DNA of 64,000 nt from Antrihabitans stalagmiti (GTDB lineage: Bacteria > Actinomycetota > Actinomycetes > Mycobacteriales > Mycobacteriaceae): the NCBI RefSeq assembly GCF_016482825.1, contig NZ_JAEMNV010000003.1, positions 496,001-560,000 on the forward strand, given 5' to 3'. Numbering within the stretch: position 1 is the stretch's first letter; each line of letters starts with the position of its first letter. Under the pieces are notes generated by a model, which searched no databases, had not been told where the DNA came from, and worked only from the letters and a program-made list of their open reading frames with translations. Below, piece after piece: positions 18,083 to 43,808 of this stretch. Made by a program: the position numbers and the translations under genes.

Positions 18083-18111
18083 CTGGTTGTCCTTCACTGT
18101 GGCGGGCGCGG

Positions 18112-18969: not shown

Positions 18970-19012
18970 GGGAGTTCCTTTCAAAACATATGCGGTGCTG
19001 CGTGATCCGCGG

Positions 19013-19951: not shown

Positions 19952-19953
19952 TT

Positions 19954-21729: not shown

Positions 21730-21753
21730 GGGTTGTGTCACTTCGCTTTTCGG

Positions 21754-22860: not shown

Positions 22861-22903
22861 CGGTGAAACTCCTCGAGTGTGGTTTTCGCGCAAGCGGTTT
22901 GAA

Positions 22904-23518
22904 CTAGGAGGTGACGGAGGTAGCCGTCAGGGCGTTGGTGACGTCGTCGATGGTCGAGATGTCGGCGAGCAGCCCGAGCGATTCGATGCTCGCCTCGTGT
23001 GCGGCGGGAGTGGCCGCGGCGCAGGCGTCGGCGACGATCACGGTGTGGTAGCCGAGGTCGCTGGCGACGCGGGCAGTTCCTTCCACGGAGAAGTTGGTCG
23101 CGACGCCGGCGAAGGCGAGGCTGGTGATTCCCTTGCTGCGCAATGCATCGTCGAGTCCGCTGCCGGCGAATCCGCCGACCCGTTGGTGGTCGATGACGAT
23201 GTCACCGTCGTGCGGTGTGAGGGGCTCGACTATCGCGGTGAGCGGGTTTCCGTCCTTGAGGCAGCCGGACTGTTGCACGATGCCCAGGATCGGGGAGTTG
23301 ACCTGTAGGTCGGAGAAATCCGGCTTCCAGGCGACGCGGGTGTAGACGACGGTGCCGCCGGCAGTTCTGAATGTGTCTGCGAGCCTGGCGATCTTGGCAA
23401 TCACGTCGCGTTCGACGACCTGCTGATAGAAGAAGTCGGCGAAGGCGCCGTCGGGTCCGACGACGTCACCCTGGCAGTGGATGACCAGCAGTGCGGTGGT
23501 GCGGGGATCGAGTTCCAT
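22904..23518 (-). CDS. Isochorismatase-fold hydrolase with the nucleophile Cys replaced
   Basis: 204 aa, normal for the isochorismatase-like cysteine hydrolases. The core LLVIHCQGDVV (residues 10-20) corresponds to the usual LLVIDMQ.DF, and AFAGVATNFSVEGTARVASD corresponds to the usual VATNVCVESTARDA, so the nucleophilic Cys is Ser and the first Asp is His. It may act by a different mechanism or on an ester/amide intermediate. It sits between the LLM enzyme and the MDR gene in the operon. Confidence 0.75.
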   Translation of the reverse strand: MELDPRTTALLVIHCQGDVVGPDGAFADFFYQQVVERDVIAKIARLADTFRTAGGTVVYTRVAWKPDFSDLQVNSPILGIVQQSGCLKDGNPLTAIVEPLTPHDGDIVIDHQRVGGFAGSGLDDALRSKGITSLAFAGVATNFSVEGTARVASDLGYHTVIVADACAAATPAAHEASIESLGLLADISTIDDVTNALTATSVTS

Positions 23519-23550
23519 GACGTATTCCTTTGCGGTGGTATGGGTTCGGG

Positions 23551-24624: not shown

Positions 24625-24860
24625 TGTTTCTCCTCGTGGATTGCCGCGACGGTGTCGCCGGGCCGACCGGAAGTTCGCTGCCGGCATATCCGCGGAAGGA
24701 GGGCTCAACTTCTAGAGCGGTAGAATGCTAGCGTGCCAGATCACCATAACGCGCGGTGATCCAGACCACAAGTACTAGAATGCTAGTGCTAGAATGCAAG
24801 TTGTAATTTGCCGTGGGAGGGTGGAGAGATGTCTGGTGGACCCGTCGAAGCGATCGTGGG
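24625..24860. promoter_or_regulatory. Divergent control region with clustered CTAG motifs
   Basis: Between the LLM gene and the GntR gene. CTAG occurs five times in about 80 bp (24712, 24728, 24775, 24783, 24789), arranged as three copies of TAGAATGC, two of them extended to TAGAATGCTAG (24721-24731, 24776-24786). An ATCACC (24740-24745)/GGTGAT (24755-24760) inverted repeat lies between them. CTAG is rare in DNA of this composition, so these are likely binding sites for the adjacent GntR regulator. Confidence 0.6.
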
Positions 24861-29628: not shown

Positions 29629-30618
29629 ATGGCCGATCTGTACACGCGGGTGCTCGTCGACGTGTCGTATGCGGCTGGCTCTGCCGGATACTCGGGGTCC
29701 GGCGATGAAGTTCTGACACTCCTCCAGCAGGGCACGCACCACGAGGCTGCCGCACTGCTGGCGTGGGATCGCTTGCAGATGCGACATCGACCGATCGTCA
29801 GTGCGGGCTACCGCGCTGATACTGTCGAACAATTGGGCGACCGGTACGTGGTCTCGGCTGAGAACCGCGCGCTGGAGACGGCGTCCGGTCCGGTGCGGAT
29901 AGATGATCTGCCGCAGTATCGAGAAACTCCCATGTTTCGCGAGGTGCTGGCTCCAGCAGGATTTCAGGACGGGATGACGAGCCGTTTGTATCGCGACGAC
30001 GGATCGTATGCGGGGATGCTTCATGTGTCGGCGGCGGATGTCGGCACGTTCGACCATCGAGCGAGGGATCTCGTCGCTGCGTTGGGCACGGTGATGTCGC
30101 GGCTGATCGTCGTCAAGCGCCCACCCGCGTTGTTACCCCCAGCCCCCGAGGGCGCCCTTGTTGGCGTGGTCGACCACTTCGGAGGGGTCAAGCCAGTCGA
30201 CGGCTTCCACCTTCCCCTTGCGATGGCGGACCACAGCTTTCAGGCAGTTGTTGCCCGCTTCTTGCGGTCGTCGAGCCCGGCTGCGGTCGGTTTGTGGCCG
30301 ACTGGTCGACACTGGGCGTCGGTGATGCTGACGCGTGTGGTCGACCAAGGCTTGCACGCGGCCACACTGGTGCAAGAAACCCAAATTGAGCCGATCCCGT
30401 ACGGGCTGTCGAACAGAGAACTCGACATTTTGGCAGGCATGGCTTCCGGACACACCAACCGGCAGATCGCGGCGTTCCGGTCGATTTCGGTGCGGACAGT
30501 GACGTCGCACGTGGAGAGCATATTGAGGAAGATGGACACTGGCTCCCGGGCGACCGCCGTCGTTGCGGCCGCACGGGAGGGGCTGCTTCGCCTGGACTGC
30601 GCTCAGACGATGATCTGA
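29629..30618 (+). CDS. LuxR-type regulator with an N-terminal GAF-like domain
   Basis: 329 aa. The first ~180 residues resemble a GAF sensor (VSAENRALETASGPVRIDD, YRDDGSYAGMLHVSAADVG) and the C-terminus is a LuxR/NarL HTH (LSNRELDILAGMASGHTN then IAAFRSISVRTVTSHVESIL). AGGAGTGCCC precedes the ATG. Its last 16 bases overlap the 3' end of the convergent dimethylformamidase gene. The position makes it a candidate activator of the formamidase-permease operon, with the AT-rich palindrome at 34922-34939 as a possible site. Confidence 0.85.
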   Translation: MADLYTRVLVDVSYAAGSAGYSGSGDEVLTLLQQGTHHEAAALLAWDRLQMRHRPIVSAGYRADTVEQLGDRYVVSAENRALETASGPVRIDDLPQYRETPMFREVLAPAGFQDGMTSRLYRDDGSYAGMLHVSAADVGTFDHRARDLVAALGTVMSRLIVVKRPPALLPPAPEGALVGVVDHFGGVKPVDGFHLPLAMADHSFQAVVARFLRSSSPAAVGLWPTGRHWASVMLTRVVDQGLHAATLVQETQIEPIPYGLSNRELDILAGMASGHTNRQIAAFRSISVRTVTSHVESILRKMDTGSRATAVVAAAREGLLRLDCAQTMI

Positions 30619-32924
30619 TCCAGAGCATCCTTCATCAAGAATCGCTTCAACACGTTGTGGGTAATCCTCGCGACGTTGTTTTCGTATCCGTTGTGGGACA
30701 GAGCAGCGGTCCATGCGATCGAGCCGACGGAGAAGAAACCGCCGCCGCCGTCGAGTGCGCCGAGAACGATGTCGGACCGAACGTAGGGATGTTCGCTGCC
30801 GCCCAGCCCAGGGAGGTTTTCATAGACCTCCTCGGAGGCGACCAAGTACGCATCGGTGAATCCTCCGGAGGTGGCGAGCAGAAGGGTACCCGGTGGTGAT
30901 CCGAGCGCTGGGTCGTAGCAATCGATTTCGGCTCCGGCAGCGCCGCCGCCCATGATGCCGAAGTCACCGATGACTTCATCGGGTTCGAGTCCGTCGAACA
31001 CGAACGTTGCCCGAGGATCGCGGCTGTCTTCGAGTCGTACGTAGTGGGTGGATCGGTCGAAGCCTTGGGCCGCGAATCCGACGCCGGTGAGCCGCTGCGG
31101 GGCTTTTCCCTTGTTCCGCCACAGACCAGCCATTTCACCTGAGGTGGCGTGTCGTCGTTCACCGTAGGCGGTTTGGTGGGGTCGGGTGCCCGCTGCGGAT
31201 CGGCGAAGCTCCATCAAGTACGGCTGGTCCGGCACGAACGAGGCGGTGGCGAAGAACCCGTTGCCGCCCAGATACATCAGACGTCCACCGCGGGCGGTGT
31301 ATAGGTCGAGTGCATCTATTTCGCGGCGCGTGACGTATTCGGGGTGCGCACCGCTGATGACCACTTTGTAGTCAGCGAGCAGTTCATAGCCGCCCATGTC
31401 GAGCGCTTCGTCTGTGATGACGTCGAACCCACACTCGAGAGTGTCGAGCCAATGGACGATACAGAGGTCTGCGGGGAGGCCCCAGACGCCGTTGCTTTGA
31501 AACCACGCACGGTGTTTGGGTTGCAGGGTGATTATCGGCTTGCGGACGCTACCGAACACGACGCCGCTGCCGTCGTTGTGAATTTCGTAGCAGGATCGGC
31601 CGAATTGGGGGTGATCCTGCAGGTCGAGATCTTCTTGCCCGAGAACCGGGGTGTGGCTGACGATGACCTCTGCGCCGTCGGCTTCGAACGCGATTCGGTC
31701 GTTGGCGTAGGCGAGGTATGTTGCGGTCGAAAGCAGCAGAGCCACATCCTTTTTGCGGCTCCCAGGCCCGATGAGAAAGGGAACGTACTGCTCGGTCTCG
31801 CCGCCGACCAGTCGTGCCGCGTAGACGCCGCTGGGAAGGTCTTCAGGGACCTCGAACGTGAACGCGATGGGCCATTGGGCATCGGTGATGTCGTCGTCGT
31901 GGAAGTGAATCGCATCGAATTCGTCGGGGACGGAACGGAAGTCCTCCGAGAGCCCCGCGTAGAGCGGACCGGTCACAGCTCGCATCGGTGCGTTGAAGCA
32001 GCGGCCGTGCAGTCCATTGTCCGAAAGATCGACGACATCCCAGAGCAGAAGGCCGTCCTCGCGATTGGAGAGGCCGAAGTGCCACCGAGCGAGCAGTTCT
32101 TCGCCGTTTCCCGTCAGCGGGTCGCCTCCGCGGGTGATACTGAGCGCCCCGATCTTTCCGTTGAATGGTGCTGCGGCCAGCCATCTCTCGCCGTCGCGGT
32201 GGGCGAGCGCCCCAATTCGGAACGGATGAGCGCTGCGGGCAAGATTTCGAGCAACCGCAGGTGCCGCCGCGTCATCGACGTCGATTTGCGCTGCCTGGTC
32301 GGAGACCCGATTCATGCAGTTCGCGATGGGGGTTTGCGTCAATTGGACGTCGACCTCGCTGCCCGGAAAGCGCACATCGATGCGGTACCAGTGGTTGGCG
32401 AGGATTGCACTCGAGGTCGACAGCGACCTCGGCTGTCCGTCGTCACCCCACAGAACCGTGGGGATTCCCTCGTCCAGTACCAGCGCGTAGCCTGTCGCGG
32501 TGCCTTCGTCCCAAGTGCCACAGATGGTTTGACGCTGATTCGTCAGGCCGATGGAGTTCTGCGTCACGTGATAGGCGCCGATGCTCTCGTTCCGTTCGGT
32601 CAGCGGGAGCGTTGCGTAGACGTACACGCTGATTGCCATGTCCGTCGGTTCGGCCAACACCGAACCTGGGTCGTCGATTTCCACGAACGATCCGGGCTGA
32701 CAGACGTGGTGTTCCCCGGTGTAGCTTCCGGCGAAGCCGGCGTCGGGCACCTCGTACTCGACGAATCCAGGCCCGGCCGACCCGGTGAAGCCGTGACTCA
32801 ACCGCACCAGAGAAGCGTCGTACATCGGCGGTCCCTCGCTGCTGACGTGGAAGGTCAGCGCTTCACCAGGGCGGGCGTAGAGGCGGTCGGTGTAGCCGAA
32901 TATCTTGCTGGGGTGCGGTTCCAT
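30603..32924 (-). CDS. N,N-dimethylformamidase-like large (beta) subunit
   Basis: 773 aa, close to known large subunits (about 760). It begins with KIFGYTDRLYARPGEALTFHV and has a lectin/sandwich-like region (ESIGAYHVTQNSIGLTNQRQ) at about residues 200-290. The second half holds LLSTATYLAYANDRIAFE, RSCYEIHNDGSG and a glutamine-amidotransferase-like fold (YELLADYKVVISGAHPEYVT, RGGRLMYLGGNGFF). The characterised Paracoccus enzyme has a 2-Tyr-1-carboxylate iron site and splits DMF to formate and dimethylamine. The Tyr/Glu ligands were not aligned here. The physiological amide may be larger than DMF. Confidence 0.9.
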   Translation of the reverse strand: MEPHPSKIFGYTDRLYARPGEALTFHVSSEGPPMYDASLVRLSHGFTGSAGPGFVEYEVPDAGFAGSYTGEHHVCQPGSFVEIDDPGSVLAEPTDMAISVYVYATLPLTERNESIGAYHVTQNSIGLTNQRQTICGTWDEGTATGYALVLDEGIPTVLWGDDGQPRSLSTSSAILANHWYRIDVRFPGSEVDVQLTQTPIANCMNRVSDQAAQIDVDDAAAPAVARNLARSAHPFRIGALAHRDGERWLAAAPFNGKIGALSITRGGDPLTGNGEELLARWHFGLSNREDGLLLWDVVDLSDNGLHGRCFNAPMRAVTGPLYAGLSEDFRSVPDEFDAIHFHDDDITDAQWPIAFTFEVPEDLPSGVYAARLVGGETEQYVPFLIGPGSRKKDVALLLSTATYLAYANDRIAFEADGAEVIVSHTPVLGQEDLDLQDHPQFGRSCYEIHNDGSGVVFGSVRKPIITLQPKHRAWFQSNGVWGLPADLCIVHWLDTLECGFDVITDEALDMGGYELLADYKVVISGAHPEYVTRREIDALDLYTARGGRLMYLGGNGFFATASFVPDQPYLMELRRSAAGTRPHQTAYGERRHATSGEMAGLWRNKGKAPQRLTGVGFAAQGFDRSTHYVRLEDSRDPRATFVFDGLEPDEVIGDFGIMGGGAAGAEIDCYDPALGSPPGTLLLATSGGFTDAYLVASEEVYENLPGLGGSEHPYVRSDIVLGALDGGGGFFSVGSIAWTAALSHNGYENNVARITHNVLKRFLMKDALDQIIV

Positions 32925-32940
32925 GATCCAACCTGCCTGT

Positions 32941-33306
32941 TCAGTCGTTGCTAACGAATTGTGCGTGCCGCCGGCGCAATACAGCGCGCGCAGCTGCGAC
33001 ATAGTCATCGAAGGATTCGCCCTCGATAAGCAGATTTCCTGGTGCACCGATGACGATTCGCCCGATCGCCCATGGCCCGTCGGCGCCACGTGCGAGGAGG
33101 ATGTCCTTACCGGTGATGGGCAGGCTACGAAGGTAGCGAAGCACCCGCGTCGTGCGGTCGGTGTGCGGCCCGAACGGGTTCGTATCTAGTTCCTCGGCAA
33201 CCGTTTCGGTGTATAGAGCTGCTATGCGGTCCCGGATTCGACGGGCGTGGAGGTGCGCCAATTCGCCCGTGCGATCTGATGCGGTGCGTGCCGTAGTCGA
33301 ACTCAT
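32941..33306 (-). CDS. N,N-dimethylformamidase-like small (alpha) subunit
   Basis: 121 aa, matching the ~130-residue alpha subunit. Basic, helical, with RTGELAHLHARRIRDRIAAL and DILLARGADGPWAIGRI. AGGAG precedes the ATG, and the large-subunit gene follows after 16 bp, the same order as in characterised dmfA1-dmfA2 pairs. It contacts the large subunit and is needed for activity in studied cases. One base separates its start from the stop of the permease, so permease, small and large subunit form one operon. Confidence 0.88.
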   Translation of the reverse strand: MSSTTARTASDRTGELAHLHARRIRDRIAALYTETVAEELDTNPFGPHTDRTTRVLRYLRSLPITGKDILLARGADGPWAIGRIVIGAPGNLLIEGESFDDYVAAARAVLRRRHAQFVSND

Positions 33307-33307
33307 C

Positions 33308-34759
33308 TCAGCGCTCCTGGTAGGTGGTGATGGTCGGCGCGACGTGGGATTTACCCGTCGCAGGTGATTCGACGGGGGTGTCGTCGAGGTCGGATTGCGC
33401 CAATGACCGGCCGGTCATACGGAAATACACGGCGATCAGAACTCCGATCGCGAGCCAGGCAAGCCCGACGACCTTGGCGTTGTCGCTGGCACTCCAGAGC
33501 GCGTAGATCAGTACGGCTGCGCCGAGGGTCGGCGAGACCCAGTGCACGAAAATCCGTCGGCTCTGCATTCGCGCTCCGAAGTGCACCAGCACACTGATAT
33601 GAAGCAGGATGTATGCGGTCAGAGCGCCGAACGTGACGAGGCTTGTGAGCAGTGCAGGGTTCTCGACTCCGACGATGCCAACGATGAGCGACAGCCCCGT
33701 GATGAAGATCATTGCGTTCGCGGGTGCTTTGGTCCTCGAATTCACCACTGCCAGGATCTTTGGGAGCTGGCGGTCGCGAGCCATGCTGAACACCAGACGT
33801 GATGACGTTGCGTTCGACGCCATGATGTTGGCGAACAATGCGATGAGTGCCGCAGTAAGAGTGACGACGACCTGGAACCAGTGCGCCATGACCTGACCGG
33901 TGAGGTTGTAGAAGGCGTTGTTGGTGTCATCGCCTTCGGCGAACACGGTACCGGCGGGGACGAAGATCGCGGCGATGTATACCTGAATGACGAAAAGCGC
34001 TGTCACCAACCACAACACGATCATGGTGGCCTTCGATACTGTCTTTCCGCCTCCTTTGGCTTCCTCGTTGAGAGTCGAGATGGCGTCGAAGCCGATGAAG
34101 CTCAGGGCTGCGATGGGGATGGCACCGAAGACGAGCGACCACGAGAACGTTTCGGCGCGAAATAGCGGATCGAGGGAGAAATGGCCCTTGCCTTGCGTAA
34201 CTGCCACCAGTGCCCATCCGACGAACACGGCCAGGACCAGAAGCTGGATGATCAGGAAGATCTTGTTCATCGTTGCGGTAAAGGTGATGCCCCGCAGGTT
34301 GATCGCGGCGGTCATCACAACGAAGACGACGATCCAGATCCATGCCGGCAAGCCGGGGACTAGGGATGTCATTGCCGACGCTGCGAAGACTGACAGCAAA
34401 GCGGGTAGGAGCAAGTAGTCGAGCAGAATCGCCCAGCCCGCCAAGAATCCGACGAACTGATTGATTCCGTACCGGACGTAGGAGTACGCCGAGCCCGCTA
34501 TCGGGAAGCTCAACGCCATCTCCCGGTAGCTCAGCGCGCTGAACACCATGGCGATTGCGGCGACGATGTACACCAAGGCAACCGCGCCCGACGAAAAGTT
34601 ATACACGATGCCAAAGACGGCGATCGGCGCAATGGGGACCATGTAGATGAGTCCGTAGATCACCACATCGGCCAAGCTCATAGACCGCTTCAACTCAGGC
34701 TCGTACCCGAGTCTTTCCAGCTCAACGTTTGCCGAAGTGTTCTCGTCGACCGCGTTCAT
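33308..34759 (-). CDS. APC-superfamily permease of the formamidase operon
   Basis: 483 aa with about 12 TM segments. N-terminal MSLADVVIYGLIYMVPIAPI, FPIAGSAYSYVRYGINQ and TM6 LSFIGFDAISTLNEEAKGG place it in the amino-acid/amine permease group, close to the other permease here but not a recent duplicate. It is the first gene of the permease-dmfA1-dmfA2 operon and probably imports the amide that the enzyme hydrolyses. Confidence 0.88.
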   Translation of the reverse strand: MNAVDENTSANVELERLGYEPELKRSMSLADVVIYGLIYMVPIAPIAVFGIVYNFSSGAVALVYIVAAIAMVFSALSYREMALSFPIAGSAYSYVRYGINQFVGFLAGWAILLDYLLLPALLSVFAASAMTSLVPGLPAWIWIVVFVVMTAAINLRGITFTATMNKIFLIIQLLVLAVFVGWALVAVTQGKGHFSLDPLFRAETFSWSLVFGAIPIAALSFIGFDAISTLNEEAKGGGKTVSKATMIVLWLVTALFVIQVYIAAIFVPAGTVFAEGDDTNNAFYNLTGQVMAHWFQVVVTLTAALIALFANIMASNATSSRLVFSMARDRQLPKILAVVNSRTKAPANAMIFITGLSLIVGIVGVENPALLTSLVTFGALTAYILLHISVLVHFGARMQSRRIFVHWVSPTLGAAVLIYALWSASDNAKVVGLAWLAIGVLIAVYFRMTGRSLAQSDLDDTPVESPATGKSHVAPTITTYQER

Positions 34760-35055: not shown

Positions 35056-35643
35056 TCAGAGGGTGCGAGGTTTCCAGCTCGGCCTTTTCTGTTCGAACGC
35101 GCTGATCAGGCCGTTGTGTTGTTCGGTGATGGCGATGTCGTCGAGTCCGTTGAGTAGTTGCCATCGGGTGTGGTCGTTGATCGTGAAGGTGAAGGCGTGC
35201 GGTCCAGCGGTGATGACGCGTGTAGTCAGGTCGACAGCCACCTCCTCGCACGCATCGTCCTCGACCGCATTCCATAGCTGTTCGACCTCGTCGCCGGTGA
35301 CTTGTGCTGTGAGGAGCCCGTTCTTTCCAGCGTTGCTGCGAAAGATATCGGCGAATCGGGATGAGACGACGACGCGAATCCCGTAGTCCAACAATGCCCA
35401 AACAGCGTGTTCGCGGGAAGATCCAGTGCCGAAATCGGGTCCGACGATCAGGATCTTGCCGTGATCGAAGGGTGTGGTGTTGAGAATGAAAGTGGGATCG
35501 GCACGCCAGGTTGCGAACAGCGCATCGTCGTAACCGGTTCGGGTCACACGCTTCATGAACGCCGATGGACAGATCTGATCGGTGTCGATGTTGCTGCGGC
35601 GCAGAGGTATTGCGATTCCGGAGCAGCGGGTGAAAGCGTCCAC
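35056..35643 (-). CDS. LeuD-like hydro-lyase small subunit
   Basis: 195 aa, typical of the 3-isopropylmalate/aconitase-family small subunit. The signatures are [16 protein letters not shown], the swivel-domain motif [17 protein letters not shown], and [18 protein letters not shown]. Such subunits need a LeuC-type [4Fe-4S] large subunit, which is not in this window. It is the last gene of the operon (GTG start, GAGGAA upstream, 42 bp after the dioxygenase). It probably adds water across a C=C of a ring-fission product and not in leucine synthesis (inference). Confidence 0.85.
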
Positions 35644-35685
35644 AAGGTTCCTCGCAGCAGTTGAGGGGACGCGCCTGCCGGCGGG

Positions 35686-36549
35686 TCAGATAGTGGGCTC
35701 CAGGACGAAGTCGTAGTGCGCGACGAGGAACGGTTCGTCGGTGACCTTGCCGTCGGGGCTGAGACCGGGGTCGTGCTCGACGAACGGGACGATCAGCGCA
35801 TCCTTGACGCCGAAGACGACGTCGGTGTCGAGGTAGTCGGCGCCCTGCTGGAACAGGTGAGTGATCAGTTTGCGGTAATCGGGTTCCTCGAACAGGAAAT
35901 GTACGTGCGCGGGACGGTATTCGCTGATCTCGGTCTTCGTGATCAGGTCACCGACCGGCCCGTCCATCGGAATGGTGTACCCGAGCGGTGCGATGGTGCG
36001 CACGCAATAGGTTCCGTCCTGTCTGGCTTGATATTTCGCGCGAAGTCGGGCTTCGTCGATCTCGGGCATTTGCGCTTCGTAGGTGCCGTCGGCGTCGGCC
36101 TGCCACACGTCGAGGACGGCACCAGGGATCGGGGTGCCTGCGGTATCGGTGACCGTGCCGGTGATGAACAACGGAGTGCCGGGGATCCCGTCGGACATGT
36201 CGTGGCCGAACGGAGCCGGCGGTGACCCGTCGATGTGGAACGGCCCGAGAACCGTTGCGGGGGTGGCTTCCTCGGCGAAGCGGTTGTTGAGCTGCACGAC
36301 GAGCATGCTGAGGCCGACGACATCGGAGGCGAGGATGAATTCCTGGCGTTTGTCGGTACTGATCTGACCGGTGGCGGTGAGCCATTCGATCGCGGTCATC
36401 CACTCCTCGGCGGTCAGTTCGACTTCACGGGCGTAGTCGTGAATGTGCCGCACGAGGGCGGTCATAAGCTGGGCCAGTCGTGGCGATTGTGCTGTGGCCC
36501 AACGTGTGACGGCGAGGTCGGTGATGTTGTCCTCGGTGACGAATGCCAT
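35686..36549 (-). CDS. Intradiol ring-cleavage dioxygenase (hydroxyquinol/catechol 1,2-dioxygenase type)
   Basis: 287 aa. An N-terminal dioxygenase helical domain (VRHIHDYAREVELTAEEW) is followed by the catalytic domain. The Fe(III) ligands appear as Tyr in ADADGTYEAQ, Tyr in APLGYTIPMDGPVG, and the His pair in EYRPAHVHFLFE, the standard Tyr-Tyr-His-His set. It opens a catechol or trihydroxybenzene between the hydroxyls to a muconate. AGGAG precedes the ATG. The position between a citryl-CoA-lyase-like and a LeuD-like gene is unusual for an intradiol enzyme. Confidence 0.92.
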   Translation of the reverse strand: MAFVTEDNITDLAVTRWATAQSPRLAQLMTALVRHIHDYAREVELTAEEWMTAIEWLTATGQISTDKRQEFILASDVVGLSMLVVQLNNRFAEEATPATVLGPFHIDGSPPAPFGHDMSDGIPGTPLFITGTVTDTAGTPIPGAVLDVWQADADGTYEAQMPEIDEARLRAKYQARQDGTYCVRTIAPLGYTIPMDGPVGDLITKTEISEYRPAHVHFLFEEPDYRKLITHLFQQGADYLDTDVVFGVKDALIVPFVEHDPGLSPDGKVTDEPFLVAHYDFVLEPTI

Positions 36550-36559
36550 GGAGAACTCC

Positions 36560-37378
36560 TTAGCTGGAATACGGGTAGGGCTCGGGATCGACTGATTCGT
36601 TGTGCAGGTCCACGGACAGAAAGATGTCGTTGCCGACCGGTCGGTGCAGTTCCTCGGCGAGTTGCCCGATCAGGCCGGCGGTGCGGGCGAGCAGCGCGAA
36701 TCCACGCAGCAGTTGTAGCGGCAGTCCCAGATCGGCCAACGCCGCGCCGCACACCCCGGCACCGTTGAGCGGCAACGTCTTTCCCAGCACCTGCGGATGC
36801 ACGCGTCCGATGGCGGCGAACAGTGCCAGATGTGGTCCGAAGAGGCCTTCCTCGGTGGCGATCTGCATCAGCCGAGGTGTGCGTGGGTCACCCTGTTTGT
36901 GCACGTGGTGGCCCAGTCCGGGGACGAACGCGTTCTCGGCTCGGCGGTTCTGCACGACCTCCAACGCGACCTTGTCCCAGTCGGAGTGAGCGGTCGGCAG
37001 CTCGCCCTCGATCCCGGCGAGCACGGTGTGCAGAAATTTGCCGGTGTCCTCGGTGACGCCGAGGAAACGGGAGCCGCCGCCGAGTAACCCGGCGGCCAAC
37101 GCGCCCTGGATCGAGTCCGGTGCCGAGAGGTAGGTGAGCCGAGTGACGATCGCGGTGGGGGTGAACCCGTGATCGGCGAGGGCAGCGAGTACTGCCTCGA
37201 ACACCCGCACCTCACCGGTGGTCGGTCGCCGTTGCGTCGCAAGCCAGAACGCGAGCTCACCGAACCCGACCTTGCCCATCACATCGTCGGCGAGATCCTG
37301 GCCGAGCAGAGTGATGGTGTGCAGGCTGGATGCGCCAAGCGCGGTGGGGTAAGTGGGCTGATCTTGTCGGCTGTTCAT
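36560..37378 (-). CDS. Citryl-CoA-lyase-like short citrate-synthase-family protein
   Basis: 272 aa, far shorter than citrate synthase (about 430) but the size of the C-terminal lyase module. The motif FVPGLGHHVHKQGDPRTPRL corresponds to the catalytic GFGHxVYK-DPR region, and LNGAGVCGAALADLGLP completes the CoA-binding fold. It should cleave a 3-hydroxy-3-carboxyacyl-CoA to acetyl-CoA and a 2-oxo acid. Its ATG overlaps the TGA of the CoA-transferase (ATGA, 37375-37378), so the two act in succession: CoA attachment, then cleavage. Confidence 0.85.
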   Translation of the reverse strand: MNSRQDQPTYPTALGASSLHTITLLGQDLADDVMGKVGFGELAFWLATQRRPTTGEVRVFEAVLAALADHGFTPTAIVTRLTYLSAPDSIQGALAAGLLGGGSRFLGVTEDTGKFLHTVLAGIEGELPTAHSDWDKVALEVVQNRRAENAFVPGLGHHVHKQGDPRTPRLMQIATEEGLFGPHLALFAAIGRVHPQVLGKTLPLNGAGVCGAALADLGLPLQLLRGFALLARTAGLIGQLAEELHRPVGNDIFLSVDLHNESVDPEPYPYSS

Positions 37379-38571
37379 GACGGGTTCGTCTCCGATGCAA
37401 CGGTATTCGCCGCGAGCCAGGCGCGGACCTCGTCGTTGTGCTCACCCAGAGCAGGCGGCGCCAGGTCGTAGCGGGCGGGGATGGTGGAGAAGGTGATCGG
37501 GTTGCGCACCCCTGCGGCGCTGGCTCCGGCGGGGCCGACCTGCACGATCGGATCGAGGCCGAGCTTTTCGGCGTACTGCACGCCCTGGGCAATGGTGTTG
37601 ATCGGCCCGTTCGGGACACCGACTTCGTTGAGTTTGTCGAACCAGTAGGTCGCGGATTCGGTCTTCAGCCGTTCGACGAGCAGTGGACGCAGTTCTTCGC
37701 GCTTCGCGGTGCGGTCGGCGTTGCGCGCGAATCGGTCGTCGTCGGCGAGTTCCGGAAGACCCAGCACGGCAACGAGTTTGCGGAACTGAGCGTCGTTGCC
37801 TGCGGCGATGATCAGGTCGTTGTCTGCGGTGGGGAGCGGCTCGTAGGGGAACAGGCTCGGATGCGCGTTGCCCATCCGGTTCGGTGTGACGCCGCCCGCG
37901 ACGTAGGCGGAGGTTTGGTTGACCAGACCGCTCATCGCGGAGGCGAGCAGGCTGGTTTCGATGTGCTGGCCTTCGCCGGTCTGGGCACGGTGCCGCAGGG
38001 CAGCGAGGATCCCGATCGTGGAGTGCAGACCGGCCATCACGTCGAAGACGCTGATCCCGGCCCGGTAGGCGGGTCCGTCGGGGTCGCCGGTGAGGCTCAT
38101 CAAGCCCGACATGGCCTGCACGATCAGGTCGTAGCCGGGGATCGAGGCGCCTTCGGCGGTGCCGAAACCGCTGATCGAGCAGTAGATGACGGCCTCGTTG
38201 CGGTCTTTGACCGAGTCGTAGTCCAGGCCGAACCGGGTGAGCCCGCCGGGTTTGAAGTTCTCCACCACGATGTCGGCGTTCGCGGCGAGTGCCTGTGCGA
38301 CGGTGAGGTCGTCGTCGTTCTTGAAGTCGAGGACGATCGACCTCTTGTTGCGGTTGATCGCGGCGTAGTAGGTGGACACGCCGTCCTCGCGCACCGGCGG
38401 CACCCAGGACCGGGTGTCGTCGCCGCCGGGGCTTTCGACCTTGATCACCTCGGCGCCCATGTCCGCGAGCAGCATCGTGGCGTACGGGCCGGCCAGCACG
38501 CGGGAGAAGTCGGCGATGACGATTCCGTCCAGGGGGCGGGTGGGGGTGTCATCGGATTCGGGGGGAGCCAC
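37375..38571 (-). CDS. Class III (CaiB/BaiF) CoA-transferase
   Basis: 398 aa from a GTG at 38571 with AAAGGACCCCCA upstream. Family blocks: LDGIVIADFSRVLAGPYATM, ADMGAEVIKVESPGGDDTR, NRNKRSIVLDFK and PGYDLIVQAMSGLMSLTGDP. It moves CoA between a donor thioester and a carboxylate. Because its product would feed the adjacent citryl-CoA-lyase-like enzyme, the acceptor is likely a tertiary-hydroxy di- or tricarboxylate formed from the ring (inference). Confidence 0.9.
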   Translation of the reverse strand: MAPPESDDTPTRPLDGIVIADFSRVLAGPYATMLLADMGAEVIKVESPGGDDTRSWVPPVREDGVSTYYAAINRNKRSIVLDFKNDDDLTVAQALAANADIVVENFKPGGLTRFGLDYDSVKDRNEAVIYCSISGFGTAEGASIPGYDLIVQAMSGLMSLTGDPDGPAYRAGISVFDVMAGLHSTIGILAALRHRAQTGEGQHIETSLLASAMSGLVNQTSAYVAGGVTPNRMGNAHPSLFPYEPLPTADNDLIIAAGNDAQFRKLVAVLGLPELADDDRFARNADRTAKREELRPLLVERLKTESATYWFDKLNEVGVPNGPINTIAQGVQYAEKLGLDPIVQVGPAGASAAGVRNPITFSTIPARYDLAPPALGEHNDEVRAWLAANTVASETNPS

Positions 38572-38618
38572 TGGGGGTCCTTTCGGGTCGGACGCGGGAA
38601 CGATTGCGCGGGTGCGGG

Positions 38619-39986
38619 TCAGCCGTCGACGAGGTCGAAGCTGAACAGTCGGTCGCGCGACGCTTCGGCGCGGCGGCGGATGTCGTCGATGTCGATGCCC
38701 ACAAGGCGGCCGCGGTGCTTGCGGACTTGTCCGGCGACGAGGACGGTGTCTATATTTCCGGGGTGCCCGGCGCCGACGATGCTGGCTGCGATGTCGTTGG
38801 CGGGCAACAGGTTTGCGTCGTCGAGCCGGAGAACTATGAGGTCGGCGTCCTTGCCGACGGTGATGGAGCCGGTCTTGTCGTCCAAGCCGGATGCGCGTGC
38901 TCCTTCGATGGTGGCCATCGCGAGCAGGTCGGCGGGGGTGAACGCCGGTAGCGATTCGTAGGTGTCGGGCGCGATGCTGATGCCGACGTTCTGGGCGAGC
39001 AGCGCGGCGCGCATGACGTTGAACATGTCGCCGGCGACGGAGGCTTCCGTGTCGATGCTGAGGCTTGGCCGGATACCTGCCGCGAGCAGGCGTCCGGTGG
39101 CGGGTGCGCCGAGGCCGGGCAGGACCGCTTCCACTGCGGCGGAGACCGAGGCGTGGCCGCCGGTGTCGGCGAGCATTTTCAGTTCGTCGTCGTCGCTGGT
39201 GCAGCAGTGAATGAACAGCAGATCTTCGCCGAGCAGTCCGGCGTCGCCGAGGGATCCGATGCCGTGGAACTGCGGACCCCATGGACCGTTGCCGACGTGC
39301 ATGCTGGAACGGATTGCCAGTTCACGGGCGAGGGCGAGGTCTTGGGTGGTGACCTCGAGGGTGGACAGTTCTGGTCCGCGCAGCATCGCCTGCAGTGTGA
39401 CCAGGGCGTCGTCGTCGGCGAGGACCTCGGCGCGGACGCGGCGGATGTCTTCGGGATGGGTGGCTTCCCCGCGCAGCATCCATTTGTTGGAGTCGATCGA
39501 GGGCCAGCCGAACGCGAACACGCCACGGATACCAGAGTCGCGCAGCGCGGCGATCGCGGCGTCGGTGTGTTCGGGACTGTTCTGGATGTGGGATTCGTCG
39601 CGGAGGGTGGTGATGCCGGCATCGAGCGCGCCGAGGGCGCCGGTGAGGTTGCCGATGTAGACGTCGTCGGGGGAGAACTGCGGTCCCCAGGTGAGCTGGA
39701 TGTGTTGGCGATATTTGGGGAAGTCCCAGCCCGTTCCGACTTGGCGGATCGCGCCCTGCCAGGTGTGGCGGTGAGTGTCTACGAATCCGGGCAGCACGGC
39801 CCGGTTGGTGCCGTCGATGACAGTGGCGCCGGTCGGGTCCAGCGCGGGTCCGACGGCGAGGATGCGTCCGTCGTCGATGAGGACGTCGCCGAACAGGTCG
39901 CCGAGTCGGTCGTCTTGGGTCAACAGGTGCGCGCCACGAATCAGGATGCGGCCCTGAGGAATATCGGTGCGGAGGGCGGTGGCCAT
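38619..39986 (-). CDS. Amidohydrolase-superfamily deaminase/dechlorinase-type enzyme
   Basis: 455 aa, cyclic-amidohydrolase (ATZ/TRZ, guanine-deaminase-like) group. The metal-binding HxH is in GFVDTHRHTWQGAIRQ, later His in SSMHVGNGPWGP and FIHCCTSDDDE, and the Asp region is SLSIDTEASVAGDMF. It should hydrolyse an amino or other substituent on a nitrogen-containing ring. AAGGA is eight bases before the ATG. Its 5' end overlaps the hydrolase gene by 46 bp. In an aromatic pathway it would remove a ring nitrogen or open a heterocycle (inference). Confidence 0.85.
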   Translation of the reverse strand: MATALRTDIPQGRILIRGAHLLTQDDRLGDLFGDVLIDDGRILAVGPALDPTGATVIDGTNRAVLPGFVDTHRHTWQGAIRQVGTGWDFPKYRQHIQLTWGPQFSPDDVYIGNLTGALGALDAGITTLRDESHIQNSPEHTDAAIAALRDSGIRGVFAFGWPSIDSNKWMLRGEATHPEDIRRVRAEVLADDDALVTLQAMLRGPELSTLEVTTQDLALARELAIRSSMHVGNGPWGPQFHGIGSLGDAGLLGEDLLFIHCCTSDDDELKMLADTGGHASVSAAVEAVLPGLGAPATGRLLAAGIRPSLSIDTEASVAGDMFNVMRAALLAQNVGISIAPDTYESLPAFTPADLLAMATIEGARASGLDDKTGSITVGKDADLIVLRLDDANLLPANDIAASIVGAGHPGNIDTVLVAGQVRKHRGRLVGIDIDDIRRRAEASRDRLFSFDLVDG

Positions 39987-41110
39987 CGCGGGTGTCCTTC
40001 GGTGAGTCGGTCGGCGAACCAGTCGGCGATGCGGGTGTGTTTGTCGTGGGAGTGGTTGTAGATGCAGTGATCGCCGTCAGGAAATTCGCTCCACGTCTTG
40101 TCGGTCGAGGCTGCGCGTTCGAACAGGGCACGTGCGTTCTCGATCAGAAAAATCTGGTCAGGTGTGCCGTGCATGACGTGCAGCGGGCAATGCAGCGACG
40201 CAAGCGTGTCGTCGGTCAACACGAAGCTGTCCATCACCGTTTTGGCGTGGATCGGGTCGTCGATCCCGAGGAGTGCCTGCACCTTGGTGATGAAGCGGCG
40301 GTAGCGGTTCAGAATCTCCGCCGGGCGTACGGTGCCGCCGTTGACGCAGCAGGCGTCGATCCGGTCGTCCGTGGCGGCGGTCAGCGCGGCGAGGAAGCCG
40401 CCCATGCTGTTGCCCCAGATCCCGACCCGATCGGCAAGCCGATCGTCGGCGTAGAGGTGATCGACCATTGCCGAAAACGCTTTCGGCACATCGGGTGTCA
40501 GGTGCAGACCGTGCAGGATCCGGGTTTCGCCTTGGCCGGGCCCGTCCACGAGAAAGGCCGCGACACCGCGATCGAGCAGATAGGTGGCGCCGACGTGGTA
40601 CTCCTCGCGCCACCCGTCGAAACCGCCCATCACGATCACCACCGGGGGCGCGGTGACCCCGGGTGGGCGCAACAACCACCCACACAGGTGCCCACCCTGA
40701 TACGGGATTTCGACGTGCTCGACCGCGGGGTCGGTGAGATCGCCTGCCGCCCCGTAGAACTCGATTAGCTTGTGGTACATCGACTTCTTGCGGGGATCGG
40801 AGTCCGGCAGCGGTACCTGTCCGACCCGAAAGCAGGCACTCGCCCGTAGATAGTCGCTGTGGGCGGTGACGCGGTGTCCGGCCCTCAGAGCGGCGTGGGC
40901 GGTGTCGGCGATGCGTGTACCGATACGTGCTGCGGCGACGGCCCACGGCACACCGGAGTCAGCCAGGGCGTAGAGCTCCACGACCTCGGCGTAGTCCATG
41001 CCGTTGCCGATCAACCGCTGCATCGGCATCGCGCGTTTGTGCGCGGCGACTTCGGCTTGCCACGGTGGTGGCGTCTCGGTGTCTGGTGTGGTTTGCGTCG
41101 TCTGTGTCAT
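39941..41110 (-). CDS. Alpha/beta hydrolase, 2,6-dihydroxypseudooxynicotine-hydrolase-like
   Basis: 389 aa with the long N-terminal helical region of the DHPON-hydrolase family (YLRASACFRVGQVPLPD, RKKSMYHKLIEFY) before the alpha/beta fold. The nucleophile elbow is IWGNSMGGFLAA, and a C-terminal His lies in PDGDHCIYNHSHD. The characterised relative from nicotine degradation cleaves a C-C bond between a ketone and a hydroxylated pyridine ring. Here it is 3 bp after an FAD monooxygenase gene and could release a hydroxylated ring from an acyl side chain. Confidence 0.85.
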   Translation of the reverse strand: MTQTTQTTPDTETPPPWQAEVAAHKRAMPMQRLIGNGMDYAEVVELYALADSGVPWAVAAARIGTRIADTAHAALRAGHRVTAHSDYLRASACFRVGQVPLPDSDPRKKSMYHKLIEFYGAAGDLTDPAVEHVEIPYQGGHLCGWLLRPPGVTAPPVVIVMGGFDGWREEYHVGATYLLDRGVAAFLVDGPGQGETRILHGLHLTPDVPKAFSAMVDHLYADDRLADRVGIWGNSMGGFLAALTAATDDRIDACCVNGGTVRPAEILNRYRRFITKVQALLGIDDPIHAKTVMDSFVLTDDTLASLHCPLHVMHGTPDQIFLIENARALFERAASTDKTWSEFPDGDHCIYNHSHDKHTRIADWFADRLTEGHPRWPPPSAPIFLRAAS

Positions 41111-41113
41111 CGG

Positions 41114-42706
41114 TCAGACTTCGGCGAACTCGTCGGGTTGTGGCACGCGGGCCGGTGTCGGGAAGCGTCCGGCCAACCCTGCGGCGAATGAATCGAGCAG
41201 GTCGCCTGCGTCGGCGGCGTTGCTGACGCTGCCGAAGAGCCAGAAGTCCGGTCGGATGAGGACGGTCGAGCGACCCAATGAGCCCAGCCACGCCGCGTAG
41301 GTGCCGTCGACATCTGCGATCGGGGCACCGGAGCCGGGTGCGCCGACGTGTGCGGTCACGATTCCGATGCGGTTGATCAGATCGCGTTGCTGGTCGGTCA
41401 AGGCGGCGAACGCGTCCGGGTCGGTGGTGAGCAGGACCCAGCCGGTGCCGACGAGGTCGTCGAACAATCCGGTTTTTCCGTCGACCGCCACGTTGCCTTG
41501 GTGGGCGATGGCTCCTGCGGTCGGATCGTCGGGTCGCGCGAAGGCGGTCGGGCCGGGAATTTCGGGCATCGGCGGAATCAGCGACGGGTCTGTCAGTGCG
41601 GCCTTCATGCCCTGGTCGCGCATCGCGGCGATTCCGGGATCGGTTATCACGCAGGGCAATCCGATTTCGCGAGACAAATGCATCCAGGCGACGAAGTTCG
41701 GTTTGCGGTCGGCGGTGTAGCTGTCGAGGATCTGTGACGAGGCTTGGCCGCGAAGCACCAGATTCAGTCGCCAGGCGAGCGCGGAGGCATCGCGGATGCC
41801 GTTACACATCCCTTCACCGGCGAAGGGCCACAACACGTGTGCAGCGTCGCCGGCCAGGAAAACTCGGCCGTCTTGCCAGTGCTCGGCGACGACTTCGCGA
41901 AAGCGATACACCGGGCGCCGCAGGATCTCGACGTCGTCGGGGCCGACCCAGGGGGAAAGCAGTTCCCAGACGCGTTCCTCAGTGAAGTCCTCGGGCGTCT
42001 CGCCGGGCAGCAGCGTCCATTCCCAGCGGTGGTGGGTGGCACCGAGCTGGAACAGGCAGCCGGGACGAGCGGGGTCGGCGAACTGACCGTTGTCGAACTC
42101 GAAATTCAACTTGTGCTTCTCTTTGGTGTCGACCACGAGTTGCTCGTAGTCGCAGTTCCCGACCCAGGTCTGGATGCCGAGTTGTTCTCGGACCGAACTG
42201 TTCGCACCGTCTGCAGCAATGAGGTACTTCGCACGGACCTGGGTGCGTTCCCGGCTCTGCCGGTTCTCGAGGGTGACGGTGACGCCCTCGTCGTCCTGCT
42301 CGAAATCGACTGCGCGGGTGGCCATCGTGACGTCGACGTTGCCCGTCGCGCTTACAGCGCCGTTCATCGCAAGCTCGAGGTAGTTCTGGTAGAAGATCCA
42401 GTGTCCGCGATGGCCGTGCGGGCCGATCTGACTCCAGTCCAGGCGCAGCAGCAGATCCCCGCCGAAGGCTTTGGTGCGCATGTCGTACATGTCCCACGGC
42501 ACCGCATCGGTCTTGAACTCCTCGTCGACGCCGATCTTCTGCAGCGTGCGCACGATCTCGTCGTCCATGTGTCCGGCACGCGAGAGCCCATAGAGCGTCG
42601 CGTGGGATTCGAAGGCGGCGACCGAGTGGCCGGCTTGGCCGAGTTGAGCGCACACCATCTGGCCCACAGGCCCGAAACCGATGACGACAACGTCGTAGGT
42701 TTTCAT
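41114..42706 (-). CDS. FAD-dependent aromatic hydroxylase (MhpA-like), first gene of the operon
   Basis: 530 aa. The FAD motif VVVIGFGPVGQMVCAQLG is at the N-terminus, LIAADGANSSVREQLG near residue 165 and VFLAGDAAHVLWPFAGEGMC near 290. Like MhpA it has a ~150-residue C-terminal thioredoxin-like extension. AAAGGAACC precedes the ATG at 42706. It hydroxylates a phenolic or hydroxy-pyridine ring using NAD(P)H. It is the first gene of the seven-gene operon and diverges from the IclR regulator. Confidence 0.88.
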   Translation of the reverse strand: MKTYDVVVIGFGPVGQMVCAQLGQAGHSVAAFESHATLYGLSRAGHMDDEIVRTLQKIGVDEEFKTDAVPWDMYDMRTKAFGGDLLLRLDWSQIGPHGHRGHWIFYQNYLELAMNGAVSATGNVDVTMATRAVDFEQDDEGVTVTLENRQSRERTQVRAKYLIAADGANSSVREQLGIQTWVGNCDYEQLVVDTKEKHKLNFEFDNGQFADPARPGCLFQLGATHHRWEWTLLPGETPEDFTEERVWELLSPWVGPDDVEILRRPVYRFREVVAEHWQDGRVFLAGDAAHVLWPFAGEGMCNGIRDASALAWRLNLVLRGQASSQILDSYTADRKPNFVAWMHLSREIGLPCVITDPGIAAMRDQGMKAALTDPSLIPPMPEIPGPTAFARPDDPTAGAIAHQGNVAVDGKTGLFDDLVGTGWVLLTTDPDAFAALTDQQRDLINRIGIVTAHVGAPGSGAPIADVDGTYAAWLGSLGRSTVLIRPDFWLFGSVSNAADAGDLLDSFAAGLAGRFPTPARVPQPDEFAEV

Positions 42707-42764: not shown

Positions 42765-42826
42765 GCCGTATTCACGGCAAAAGTGCTGTTCGAGAAGGTA
42801 TTGTCCGTCTGGCGGACGCTTGTCCG
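42765..42826. promoter_or_regulatory. IclR-type operator: three half-sites plus a small palindrome
   Basis: GTCCG (42803-42807), CGGAC (42813-42817) and GTCCG (42822-42826) are spaced about one helical turn apart as an inverted pair plus a direct copy, the layout known for PcaU/PobR operators. GCCGT (42765-42769)/ACGGC (42774-42778) lies nearer the hydroxylase start. Confidence 0.6.
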
Positions 42827-42986: not shown

Positions 42987-43808
42987 GTGGCCGAGCGAGG
43001 GCAGGGGCCGGACTTCATCGAGGCGCTGGCGCGAGGCCTGCACGTATTGCGCAGCTTCTCTGTCGATCGCCCGGCGATGTCGCTCAGCGACGTCGCCAAG
43101 GAGACCGATTTGGCGCGTCCGACCGCGCGCCGGATTCTGCTGACGCTCGAAGAGCTCGGCTACGTCCGCGCCGGCCATGCCGGCTACACGCTCACGCCGC
43201 GAGTTCTCGAACTCGGCATGGCCTACGTCGGCGCACTGAACCTCTGGGACATGGCCCGCCCACACATGGAACAGTTGGTCGCCCACACCGGCGAATCGTC
43301 CTCGATGGCCCAACTCGACGGCTCCGATATCGTCTACGTCGCGCGCGTCGCCGTACCGAAACTGATCGCCCTTCGGGTCGACATCGGGACCAGGTTCCCC
43401 GCCCTCGTGACATCTCAGGGCAAGGTGCTGCTCGCGGCATTGAACGCGGAAAAGGTACTCGAAGTATTGGCCGAACCCAGCCGTTCCGGACTGCCCGTCG
43501 CCACCTTCGCGCCGAATCAGATCGATGACATCCTCGCCGAAACGCGAACGCGCGGATGGGCATTGGCGGATCAAGATCTCGCGCCCGGAATCCGGTCCAT
43601 CGCGGTTCCCGTCCGTGACGGCCGAGGCGTGGTCCGCGCGGCTATGAACGTCACCGTCCACGCAGCCGAAACGTCGGTCGAAACCCTCACTCAGGAATAT
43701 CTACCGCTACTGCTCGACGCGGCCGCTGCCGCGAGCGCCGACTGGGCGGCATGGCAATCGCGGCCCATCGAACCCGCTCCGCGGACCGCGAGGCGAGAGG
43801 TCGGCTGA
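42987..43808 (+). CDS. IclR-family regulator of the seven-gene operon
   Basis: 273 aa. The winged HTH is at about residues 10-70 (FIEALARGLHVLRSFSVDRP, SLSDVAKETDLARPTARRIL) and the effector domain contains VRDGRGVVRAAMNVTVHA. It belongs to the PcaR/PobR-like branch that governs aromatic catabolism. The GTG start at 42987 has AAAGGAGAATTC upstream. It is divergent from the operon and faces the three-half-site operator, so it likely activates the operon on sensing the substrate. Confidence 0.88.
   Translation: MAERGQGPDFIEALARGLHVLRSFSVDRPAMSLSDVAKETDLARPTARRILLTLEELGYVRAGHAGYTLTPRVLELGMAYVGALNLWDMARPHMEQLVAHTGESSSMAQLDGSDIVYVARVAVPKLIALRVDIGTRFPALVTSQGKVLLAALNAEKVLEVLAEPSRSGLPVATFAPNQIDDILAETRTRGWALADQDLAPGIRSIAVPVRDGRGVVRAAMNVTVHAAETSVETLTQEYLPLLLDAAAAASADWAAWQSRPIEPAPRTARREVG

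Follow-up and report, generated by a model that had tools for sequence, protein, structure and literature searches.

How is a ring-fission product metabolised by an operon which encodes an aromatic hydroxylase and an intradiol dioxygenase but, in place of the reductase of the hydroxyquinol/maleylacetate pathway, carries a CoA-transferase, an annotated 'citryl-CoA lyase' (CCL) and a LeuD-like subunit? The question is raised by a seven-gene operon on the minus strand, 42706 to 35056, of a 64,000-nt stretch of Antrihabitans stalagmiti DNA (the window). A preliminary description of the window, made from the sequence alone, recognised seven genes of these families running in one direction with short gaps or overlaps, and open reading frame (ORF) mapping and profile scans confirm this arrangement, with spacings in the order fad-hyd-amh-cai-ccl-ido-leuD of 3 bp, a 46 bp overlap, 47 bp, a 4 bp overlap, 10 bp and 42 bp. 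The same description stated that the operon encodes neither muconate cycloisomerase nor maleylacetate reductase, which also holds, as neither was found among the ten proteins scanned at the locus. We propose that the operon probably specifies a CoA-dependent, reductase-free lower pathway which follows fission of a ring bearing three vicinal hydroxyls. More tentatively, and with the greater chance that some part of it is wrong, we suggest that it is a catabolic operon for a phloroglucinol-class aromatic following the particular steps set out below. The seven genes are:

41114..42706, minus strand: fad, MhpA-like FAD-dependent aromatic hydroxylase (FAD_binding_3; NF004829 over cut-off)
39941..41110, minus strand: hyd, alpha/beta C-C hydrolase, best solved match DHPON hydrolase 2jbw
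38619..39986, minus strand: amh, AtzA/TrzN-type amidohydrolase (Amidohydro_1; PRK08204 over cut-off)
37375..38571, minus strand: cai, CaiB/BaiF family III CoA-transferase (CoA_transf_3), GTG start
36560..37378, minus strand: ccl, annotated 'citryl-CoA lyase' (Citrate_synt; PRK06224.1-5 over cut-off), NGAG for NVDG, core-cluster type
35686..36549, minus strand: ido, intradiol dioxygenase, hydroxyquinol 1,2-dioxygenase-like (Dioxygenase_N and _C), F108L
35056..35643, minus strand: leuD, isopropylmalate isomerase small subunit (Aconitase_C / LeuD over cut-off), Met30, no adjoining leuC

Profile and structure matches place Fad closest to the PnpA, HbpA and MhpA types, and Hyd is a distant relative of its top solved match, DHPON hydrolase 2jbw (6.6e-29). 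The top solved match of Amh is atrazine chlorohydrolase 4v1x, with conservation of the HxH, H, H and D motif residues of this amidohydrolase type. CaiB matches PF02515 over its full length (1.9e-114), its nearest curated models being dicarboxylate CoA-transferases, all of which score below their cut-offs; its start is the GTG at 38571, the longer frame in the ORF list being an upstream extension. CCL is best matched by citryl-CoA lyase 6hxp (1.2e-43), Ido by PnpC 3n9t and hydroxyquinol dioxygenase 1tmx (43% identity to 1tmx), and LeuD by the M. tuberculosis LeuD 3h5h. No aldolase was recognised among the scanned operon proteins.

The gene set recurs in two forms, a core cluster and an extended operon, the core lacking fad, hyd and leuD and being the commoner. 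In a class-wide search at a threshold of 1e-20, 51 of 394 genomes had a CCL match, at 53 places including the window, 40 of which were fetched. CaiB (62% or more) adjoins CCL in 30 of the 40, and a ring-cleavage dioxygenase is present in 29 of these 30 loci, 22 having a LigB-type enzyme with a LigA-like small protein and seven an intradiol enzyme; at the remaining locus, L048, the contig stops 205 bases past ccl. One of the ten other fetched places, L074, is a contig fragment that carries ccl together with a partial intradiol match; the other nine, L064-L072, have no ido or LigB partner, L068 having only a 26% LigB match and L072 having CCL near LeuC-LeuD. IclR (57-70%) and an amidohydrolase accompany 28 of the 29 CaiB-CCL-dioxygenase clusters, neither being present in L073, a short contig. 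The amidohydrolase of these clusters is AmhB, a ∼35% relative of Amh, with Amh itself found in L060 and L063.

The extended order, IclR divergent from fad-hyd-amh-CaiB-CCL-dioxygenase, is found in nine actinobacterial organisms: the window, Rhodococcus sp. NBC_00297 (plasmid), Williamsia muralis BULT 1.1, Rhodococcus 06-462-5, Rhodococcus 14-1411-2a, the Rhodococcus metagenome-assembled genome (MAG) PMG_259, Pseudolysinimonas yzui, Phytoactinopolyspora endophytica and G146 (locus L063). The operons of 06-462-5 and 14-1411-2a are nearly the same sequence, and that of PMG_259 is split over two contigs (L080 and L121). leuD is absent from the Phytoactinopolyspora and G146 operons and present in the other seven, and no leuC match occurs within any of the nine. 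Gene order varies, as the dioxygenase lies between amh and cai in Phytoactinopolyspora and G146, and cai-ccl-ligBA-leuD diverges from fad-hyd in Pseudolysinimonas. In the latter an ABC transporter (Peripla_BP_4, ATPase, BPD_transp_2) is also inserted between hyd and amh (L084, 6224-9998). Identities to the window are 81-85% for fad and 71-81% for hyd in the Williamsia and Rhodococcus operons, and 60-62% and 60-64%, respectively, in the other three. One search returned 11 loci, six of them the extended operon (71-90% identity) and five (36-43%) with the amidohydrolase only.

Recurrence of the same order in other genera argues that it is not a product of chance. The preliminary description had presented the lyase and LeuD genes as one unit with the dioxygenase; conservation of order bears this out for CCL and CaiB (29 of 30 Actinomycetota loci, with one plasmid counter-example described below), while the linkage of LeuD is partial (7/9 extended operons, 0/29 CaiB-CCL-dioxygenase loci among the 40 places). 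The extended operon is nevertheless rare and patchy, because among 397 genomes of the order 22 match Amh at 1e-90 and the best outside the window genome is only 60% identical, leaving the window genome alone with a close amh. In two of six fetched contexts of more distant amh relatives the gene adjoins FAD hydroxylases. Neighbour clustering yielded mostly antisense shadow ORFs, and among clusters shared by more than five loci no conserved partner was recognised other than the core genes, fad and hyd. No description of the gene set was found in the open full-text (PMC) literature, weak evidence of novelty since most subscription journals lie outside that search.

The component which is exchanged is the ring-cleavage enzyme itself. 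The intradiol dioxygenase is replaced by an unrelated LigAB-type extradiol enzyme while the partner genes stay, the type changing at least six times on a tree of CaiB, CCL and IclR (34 loci, 32 labelled) and 6, 7, 6 and 7 times on trees of CaiB plus IclR, IclR, CaiB and CCL, respectively; these are quick trees with some weak forks, built after removal of near-duplicate loci. The window and NBC_00297 illustrate the replacement, as they share 84% (fad), 81% (hyd), 89% (amh), 86% (cai) and 80% (IclR) identity, with ido in the former and LigAB in the latter. Among the extended operons the enzyme is intradiol in the window, Williamsia, PMG_259 and G146 and LigAB in the other five, so that the exchange also occurs within the leuD operons (window, Williamsia and PMG_259 against the three other Rhodococcus strains and Pseudolysinimonas). 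LigB of the sister clusters gives PF02900 and PRK13364-type matches and resembles LigB 1b4u (3.2e-19) and also gallate dioxygenase 3wku. The assignment of its small partner is weak, PF07746 being matched by 5/5 aligned members at an E-value limit of 0.5 (best 0.00022), with one shown member below the gathering score and no LigA match in PDB. Ido itself keeps 14 of 15 iron-ligand and pocket residues of 1tmx, F108 being leucine in 10/10 cluster enzymes.

Only when a ring carries three vicinal hydroxyls do intradiol and extradiol cleavage yield the same acid, as the cut bond then joins two hydroxylated carbons for both. The interchange of the two enzyme classes points to such a ring as the substrate, a constraint which was absent from the preliminary description and which changes its reading of the locus. 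1,2,3,5-tetrahydroxybenzene, the product of phloroglucinol hydroxylation, is at once a pyrogallol and a hydroxyquinol. Three other substrates were considered and set aside. Hydroxyquinol itself does not accommodate the LigAB swap. For nicotine/DHPON-type pyridine catabolism, Fad is closest to other hydroxylases and the intradiol/extradiol equivalence fails for 2,3,6-trihydroxypyridine. Gallate fits LigAB and would supply a tricarboxylic alkene for LeuCD; its usual hydratase/aldolase route, however, needs no CoA step, fad, hyd and amh would be superfluous, and it is kept as a distant alternative.

The gene set, its recurrence and the dioxygenase swaps are read directly from the sequences, whereas the substrate, intermediates, chemistry and step order are inferred, as follows. 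Hyd would remove an acyl side chain by C-C hydrolysis and Fad would hydroxylate the ring to a 1,2,3,5-tetrahydroxybenzene-type compound, which the dioxygenase would open between two hydroxylated carbons to a 2,4-dioxoadipate-type diacid, a product without an isolated C=C on which maleylacetate reductase would be useless. Amh might hydrolyse a lactone or other substituent en route, possibly opening a pyrone by analogy with LigI. CaiB would then transfer CoA to the diacid, and CCL would convert the CoA ester to acetyl-CoA and an oxo-acid, which in the unsubstituted case would be oxaloacetate, in a reaction that dispenses with the aspartate of citryl-CoA lyase. The operon LeuD, together with the housekeeping LeuC, would form a hydratase/isomerase of second specificity, acting on an intermediate or by-product of maleate type. 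This phloroglucinol to dioxoadipate route is favoured because its carbons add up (6 = 2 + 4) and it agrees with the products known for the CCL fold. In its widest form, a novel aerobic phloroglucinol-class route spanning Actinomycetota and Proteobacteria, with interchangeable dioxygenases, an aspartate-less retro-Claisen CCL yielding acetyl-CoA and oxaloacetate and a LeuD which re-aims the sole LeuC, the proposal is unlikely to be correct in every element.

CCL is the least conventional member of this scheme. The aspartate of the NVDG motif of 6hxp and the ATP-citrate lyase alpha-subunits, which is catalytic in citrate synthase, is lost in the window CCL, which reads NGAG, and is missing in 52 of 54 CCL rows in which some loci appear twice (NGAG 45, NATG 4, NVTG 2, NTAG 1), the two NIDG rows being only 31-32% identical; the GH...DPR motif is retained in 53 of the 54. 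According to PMC10115795, the corresponding D1026 of ATP-citrate lyase (ACLY) is essential, D1026A trapping citryl-CoA without formation of acetyl-CoA; what the residue does is a matter of debate, an allosteric function being the one argued for in that paper. Because this ACLY-essential residue is absent, the name 'citryl-CoA lyase' is, at the sequence level, unsupported as a statement of function and citryl-type cleavage is not to be assumed. The preliminary description is supported in part: the module of LeuD, CoA-transferase and lyase which it recognised is real, while the hydration to a tertiary hydroxy acid and the citryl-type cleavage attributed to it remain hypothetical.

The window CCL groups with 12 core-cluster CCLs (100/100) and apart from the other Mycobacteriales leuD-operon CCLs (approximately unbiased (AU) test, p 2.8e-6), the core-type group in this test having been named after the identities were seen. 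It appears that the window CCL was replaced in place by a core-type CCL and, because of this replacement, the CCL reaction is probably common to core and extended clusters. As leuD occurs in none of the 29 CaiB-CCL-dioxygenase loci, yet a core-type CCL replaced that of the window, the CCL step seems to need no operon-encoded hydratase. In L064 and L065 an AMP-ligase lies beside CCL in place of CaiB, which supports a CoA ester as the putative substrate.

LeuD was found without a neighbouring LeuC, and in the window genome the leuC search gave one match over cut-off, on contig C2, with weak aconitase matches on C1 and none on the contig of the window. Six operon-leuD genomes were searched, NBC_00297 being outside the sample. 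A single leuC and two leuDs score over cut-offs in four of them (the window genome, G394, G395 and G396), Pseudolysinimonas holds two of each, the extra leuC lying elsewhere in the genome, and MAG PMG_259 has no leuC over cut-off. The two genomes without an operon leuD have one leuC and one leuD each over cut-offs, and the spare leuDs of two other genomes each adjoin their own leuC. An extra LeuC-like protein of 461-471 aa, far below cut-off, is present in G395, G396 and G146. The second leuC of Pseudolysinimonas yzui (L119, contig C8), which lies near a distant CaiB and has no leuD match in the 13 kb fetched, may partner the operon leuD of that organism.

A single position separates the operon LeuDs, Met30 in 7/7 compared to Leu30 in 37/37 others (seven housekeeping, 30 panel), the GSSRE motif remaining intact. 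Position 30 is position 2 of the five-residue substrate recognition region described in PMC7308503, mapped to YLKRV in this analysis; the Arabidopsis small subunits read FLTLV (SSU1), AACTF (SSU2) and YGTLI (SSU3) in this region. The solved bacterial LeuDs shown have Leu at recognition position 2. CCL-linked LeuDs elsewhere have Met (B. glumae, Caballeronia SBC1) or Leu (C. metallidurans, C. necator, L072), and among the spare LeuDs the residue is Cys in L152 and Leu in L153. With the near-duplicate 14-1411-2a left out, five of the operon LeuDs group together (100/98), next to the housekeeping LeuDs of Mycobacteriales (88/90). The LeuD of Pseudolysinimonas is placed apart, weakly, and monophyly of the operon LeuDs including it is neither shown nor rejected (AU p 0.46).

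These data bear directly on the scheme of the preliminary description, in which a LeuD-family hydratase acts on the main line: housekeeping LeuC and operon LeuD would hydrate a substituted fission product to a tertiary hydroxy acid, CaiB would thioesterify it and CCL would cleave it to acetyl-CoA and a 2-oxo acid. The position of leuD after the dioxygenase in seven of the nine extended operons is in its favour, and Hyd could then split an acylpyruvate product. The hydratase step itself fares less well, as the operon encodes no LeuC, leuD is absent from all 29 CaiB-CCL-dioxygenase loci although CCL is interchangeable, and CCL lacks the ACLY-essential aspartate. In addition, LeuCD-type enzymes normally act on an alkene with vicinal carboxylates, and only a carboxylated ring would provide one. 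LeuD is the weak point of the favoured version and the strong point of the hydration scheme, which we consider somewhat unlikely; each may hold in part, should the ring substituent vary between sister clusters.

Further support for hydration comes from Proteobacteria, where 22 plasmid records were inspected of 109 with a CCL match. In six of the 22, CCL is clustered with a dioxygenase gene. Sinorhizobium B11, Neorhizobium and Aminobacter MSH1 carry CCL-CaiB-LigB-LigA, Variovorax carries CaiB-ido-CCL, Burkholderia glumae carries ido-CCL-fad-CaiB-LeuC-LeuD in an order unlike that of the window, and C. metallidurans CH34 has a 32% ido with CaiB, LeuC and LeuD; in Niveispirillum there is a weak 30% LigB match. 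The B. glumae operon unites dioxygenase, CCL, FAD hydroxylase, CaiB and both isomerase subunits, and LeuC and LeuD accompany CCL in four of the 22 records, the others being C. metallidurans and, with no match to a dioxygenase, Caballeronia SBC1 and C. necator pBB2. Many of the remaining CCLs inspected occur with acyl-CoA dehydrogenases, MaoC or AMP-ligases, from which CCL looks like a general CoA-ester enzyme that was drawn into a ring-cleavage pathway. In Aminobacter sp. MSH1 pUSP2 (L155) a MetE-like methyltransferase-domain protein and a CocE-type hydrolase precede CCL-CaiB-LigB-LigA, which hints at a methylated substrate for that cluster.

Regulation of the loci appears to be shared. Upstream of fad lie:

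42987..43808, plus strand: iclR, divergent IclR-family regulator, kept in core and extended clusters
42802..42818, plus strand: operator candidate TGTCCG-N5-CGGACA, 1 mismatch, palindrome in the iclR-fad intergenic region

Within 300 nt upstream of iclR, this motif, picked from the same data as were counted, is present with two or fewer mismatches in 23 of 35 loci, compared to a mean of 0.6 and a maximum of 3 loci in 100 mononucleotide shuffles. Six of the 35 are exact and 16 have at most one mismatch; 12 have 3 to 5. Over the whole window, sites within 2 mismatches are no commoner than in shuffles. The candidate occurs in intradiol and LigAB loci and in core and extended loci, which suggests a shared inducer.

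The absence of a reductase from the operon could reflect supply in trans. Near-full-length maleylacetate reductase homologs were sought in seven operon genomes: the window genome has three (including the query), on other stretches, so that supply in trans is possible there, and G395, G396 and G398 have one each. They are absent from the remaining three, G146 having no match at 1e-15 and Williamsia and Pseudolysinimonas only partial 33% matches. The homologs of the window genome would suit ordinary 3-oxoadipate-type catabolism with the reductase in trans, CaiB, CCL and LeuD being incidental neighbours and LeuD a spare leucine-biosynthesis subunit. We regard this as very improbable, as three of seven genomes have no near-full-length homolog, the gene set recurs in nine organisms and shares an operator candidate, and the LeuD recognition-loop change is fixed while the two other spare leuDs checked adjoin their own leuC.

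The same three genomes would be explained by a reductase-free hydroxyquinol route, in which CaiB activates maleylacetate, CCL releases acetyl-CoA and maleate, and the latter is hydrated to malate by LeuC-LeuD. The largely intact hydroxyquinol-type pocket of Ido and the altered recognition loop of LeuD are also in keeping with it. It is, however, improbable, since it leaves the LigAB replacement unexplained, as LigAB would make an aldehyde from hydroxyquinol, and the window genome already has two canonical hydroxyquinol dioxygenase/iron-containing alcohol dehydrogenase (Fe-ADH) clusters. The intradiol enzymes of these clusters share 75% and 69% identity with 1tmx, retain F108 and adjoin Fe-ADHs, of which that on C43 matches maleylacetate reductase 3w5s at 1e-72 and that on C40 is 62% identical to the C43 enzyme. 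The C43 cluster (L210) also encodes a FAD hydroxylase (36% paralog of Fad) and a DHPON-hydrolase-like enzyme (42% paralog of Hyd) beside its reductase and hydroxyquinol dioxygenase. The operon studied here looks like this fad-hyd cluster with the reductase exchanged for a CoA module.

Several observations weigh against the pathway proposed here. The triol argument assumes that both dioxygenase classes form one product, and the part given to Amh is a guess. Loss of the aspartate weakens any acetyl-CoA-releasing mechanism, by analogy with ACLY D1026A, which fails to release acetyl-CoA (PMC10115795). A simple route through 2,4-dioxoadipate gives the operon LeuD no obvious place, and its pairing with LeuC is hypothetical; the 471-aa LeuC-like protein of G395 and G396 could instead be its partner. 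The linkage of LeuC-LeuD with CCL and CaiB in B. glumae, C. metallidurans, Caballeronia SBC1 and C. necator favours hydration on the main line, and an aconitase gene lies close to core locus L055. The CCL family occurs in many clusters without a dioxygenase, and on the R. rhodochrous BX2 plasmid (L076, outside the 40-place sample) CaiB-CCL has a glyoxalase-superfamily protein nearby but nothing that matches ido or LigB. Conversely, at L231, in a genome of the same taxonomic order, a 49% Amh relative adjoins a FAD hydroxylase and IclR with a 45% Ido ∼4 kb off and no CaiB/CCL match.

The operon resembles several known systems in part. It shares a FAD hydroxylase and a hydroxyquinol-type intradiol dioxygenase with the hydroxyquinol/maleylacetate (resorcinol-type) pathway, but has amh-CaiB-CCL-(LeuD) in place of the reductase, F108L in Ido and LigAB as a substitute elsewhere. 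Gallate/protocatechuate 4,5-cleavage (LigAB, GalA, LigI and LigJ) likewise involves a LigB-type enzyme, as in the sister operon, vicinal triol substrates and amidohydrolase-superfamily steps after ring fission; in contrast, fission here is followed by a CoA-transferase and a citrate-synthase-fold protein with no aldolase recognised. CCL has the fold and His/DPR motif of citryl-CoA lyase and ATP-citrate lyase, but its clade has Ala for the NVDG aspartate and is linked to CaiB or AMP-ligase. Hyd, encoded beside a FAD hydroxylase, is a distant relative of DHPON hydrolase of the lower nicotine pathway, whereas Fad is of other types and none of the evidence examined links the operon to pyridines. 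In Arabidopsis isopropylmalate isomerase (PMC7308503) one large subunit serves several small ones and specificity lies in the five-residue recognition region; here the setting is a bacterial catabolic operon and the LeuC pairing is predicted.

If correct, the proposal would describe a ring-cleavage route bypassing both maleylacetate reductase and the 3-oxoadipate pathway, give a function to an annotated 'citryl-CoA lyase' family without the expected aspartate, and provide a bacterial case of a lone LeuD conferring a second substrate specificity on biosynthetic LeuC, as in small-subunit swapping in plants. The repeated replacement of intradiol by extradiol enzymes is a natural experiment which constrains the substrate ahead of any chemistry.

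Other loci and neighbouring genes were also noted. At L233, in a genome of the same taxonomic family, a 65% Hyd relative lies beside several FAD hydroxylases and an amidohydrolase with no CaiB/CCL match, by its gene content a different pathway sharing the same C-C hydrolase. A terminator scan past leuD gave one site compared to a shuffle mean of 0.6, and the next gene on the operon strand, of unsure operon membership, is:

33308..34759, minus strand: APC-family amino acid/amine permease, 296 bp past leuD

The permease is followed by a small ORF and then by a large protein whose C-terminal domain resembles the N,N-dimethylformamidase beta-subunit; this group (30603-34759, minus strand) is unmatched in the mapped sister operons. 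At 14521-24708, also on the minus strand, the window carries an Mhp-like meta-cleavage set composed of a short-chain dehydrogenase/reductase (SDR), acetaldehyde dehydrogenase, 2-keto-4-pentenoate hydratase and an MhpB-type extradiol dioxygenase, along with an unassigned ORF of 600 aa, an isochorismatase-family protein and a luciferase-like (LLM) oxidoreductase.

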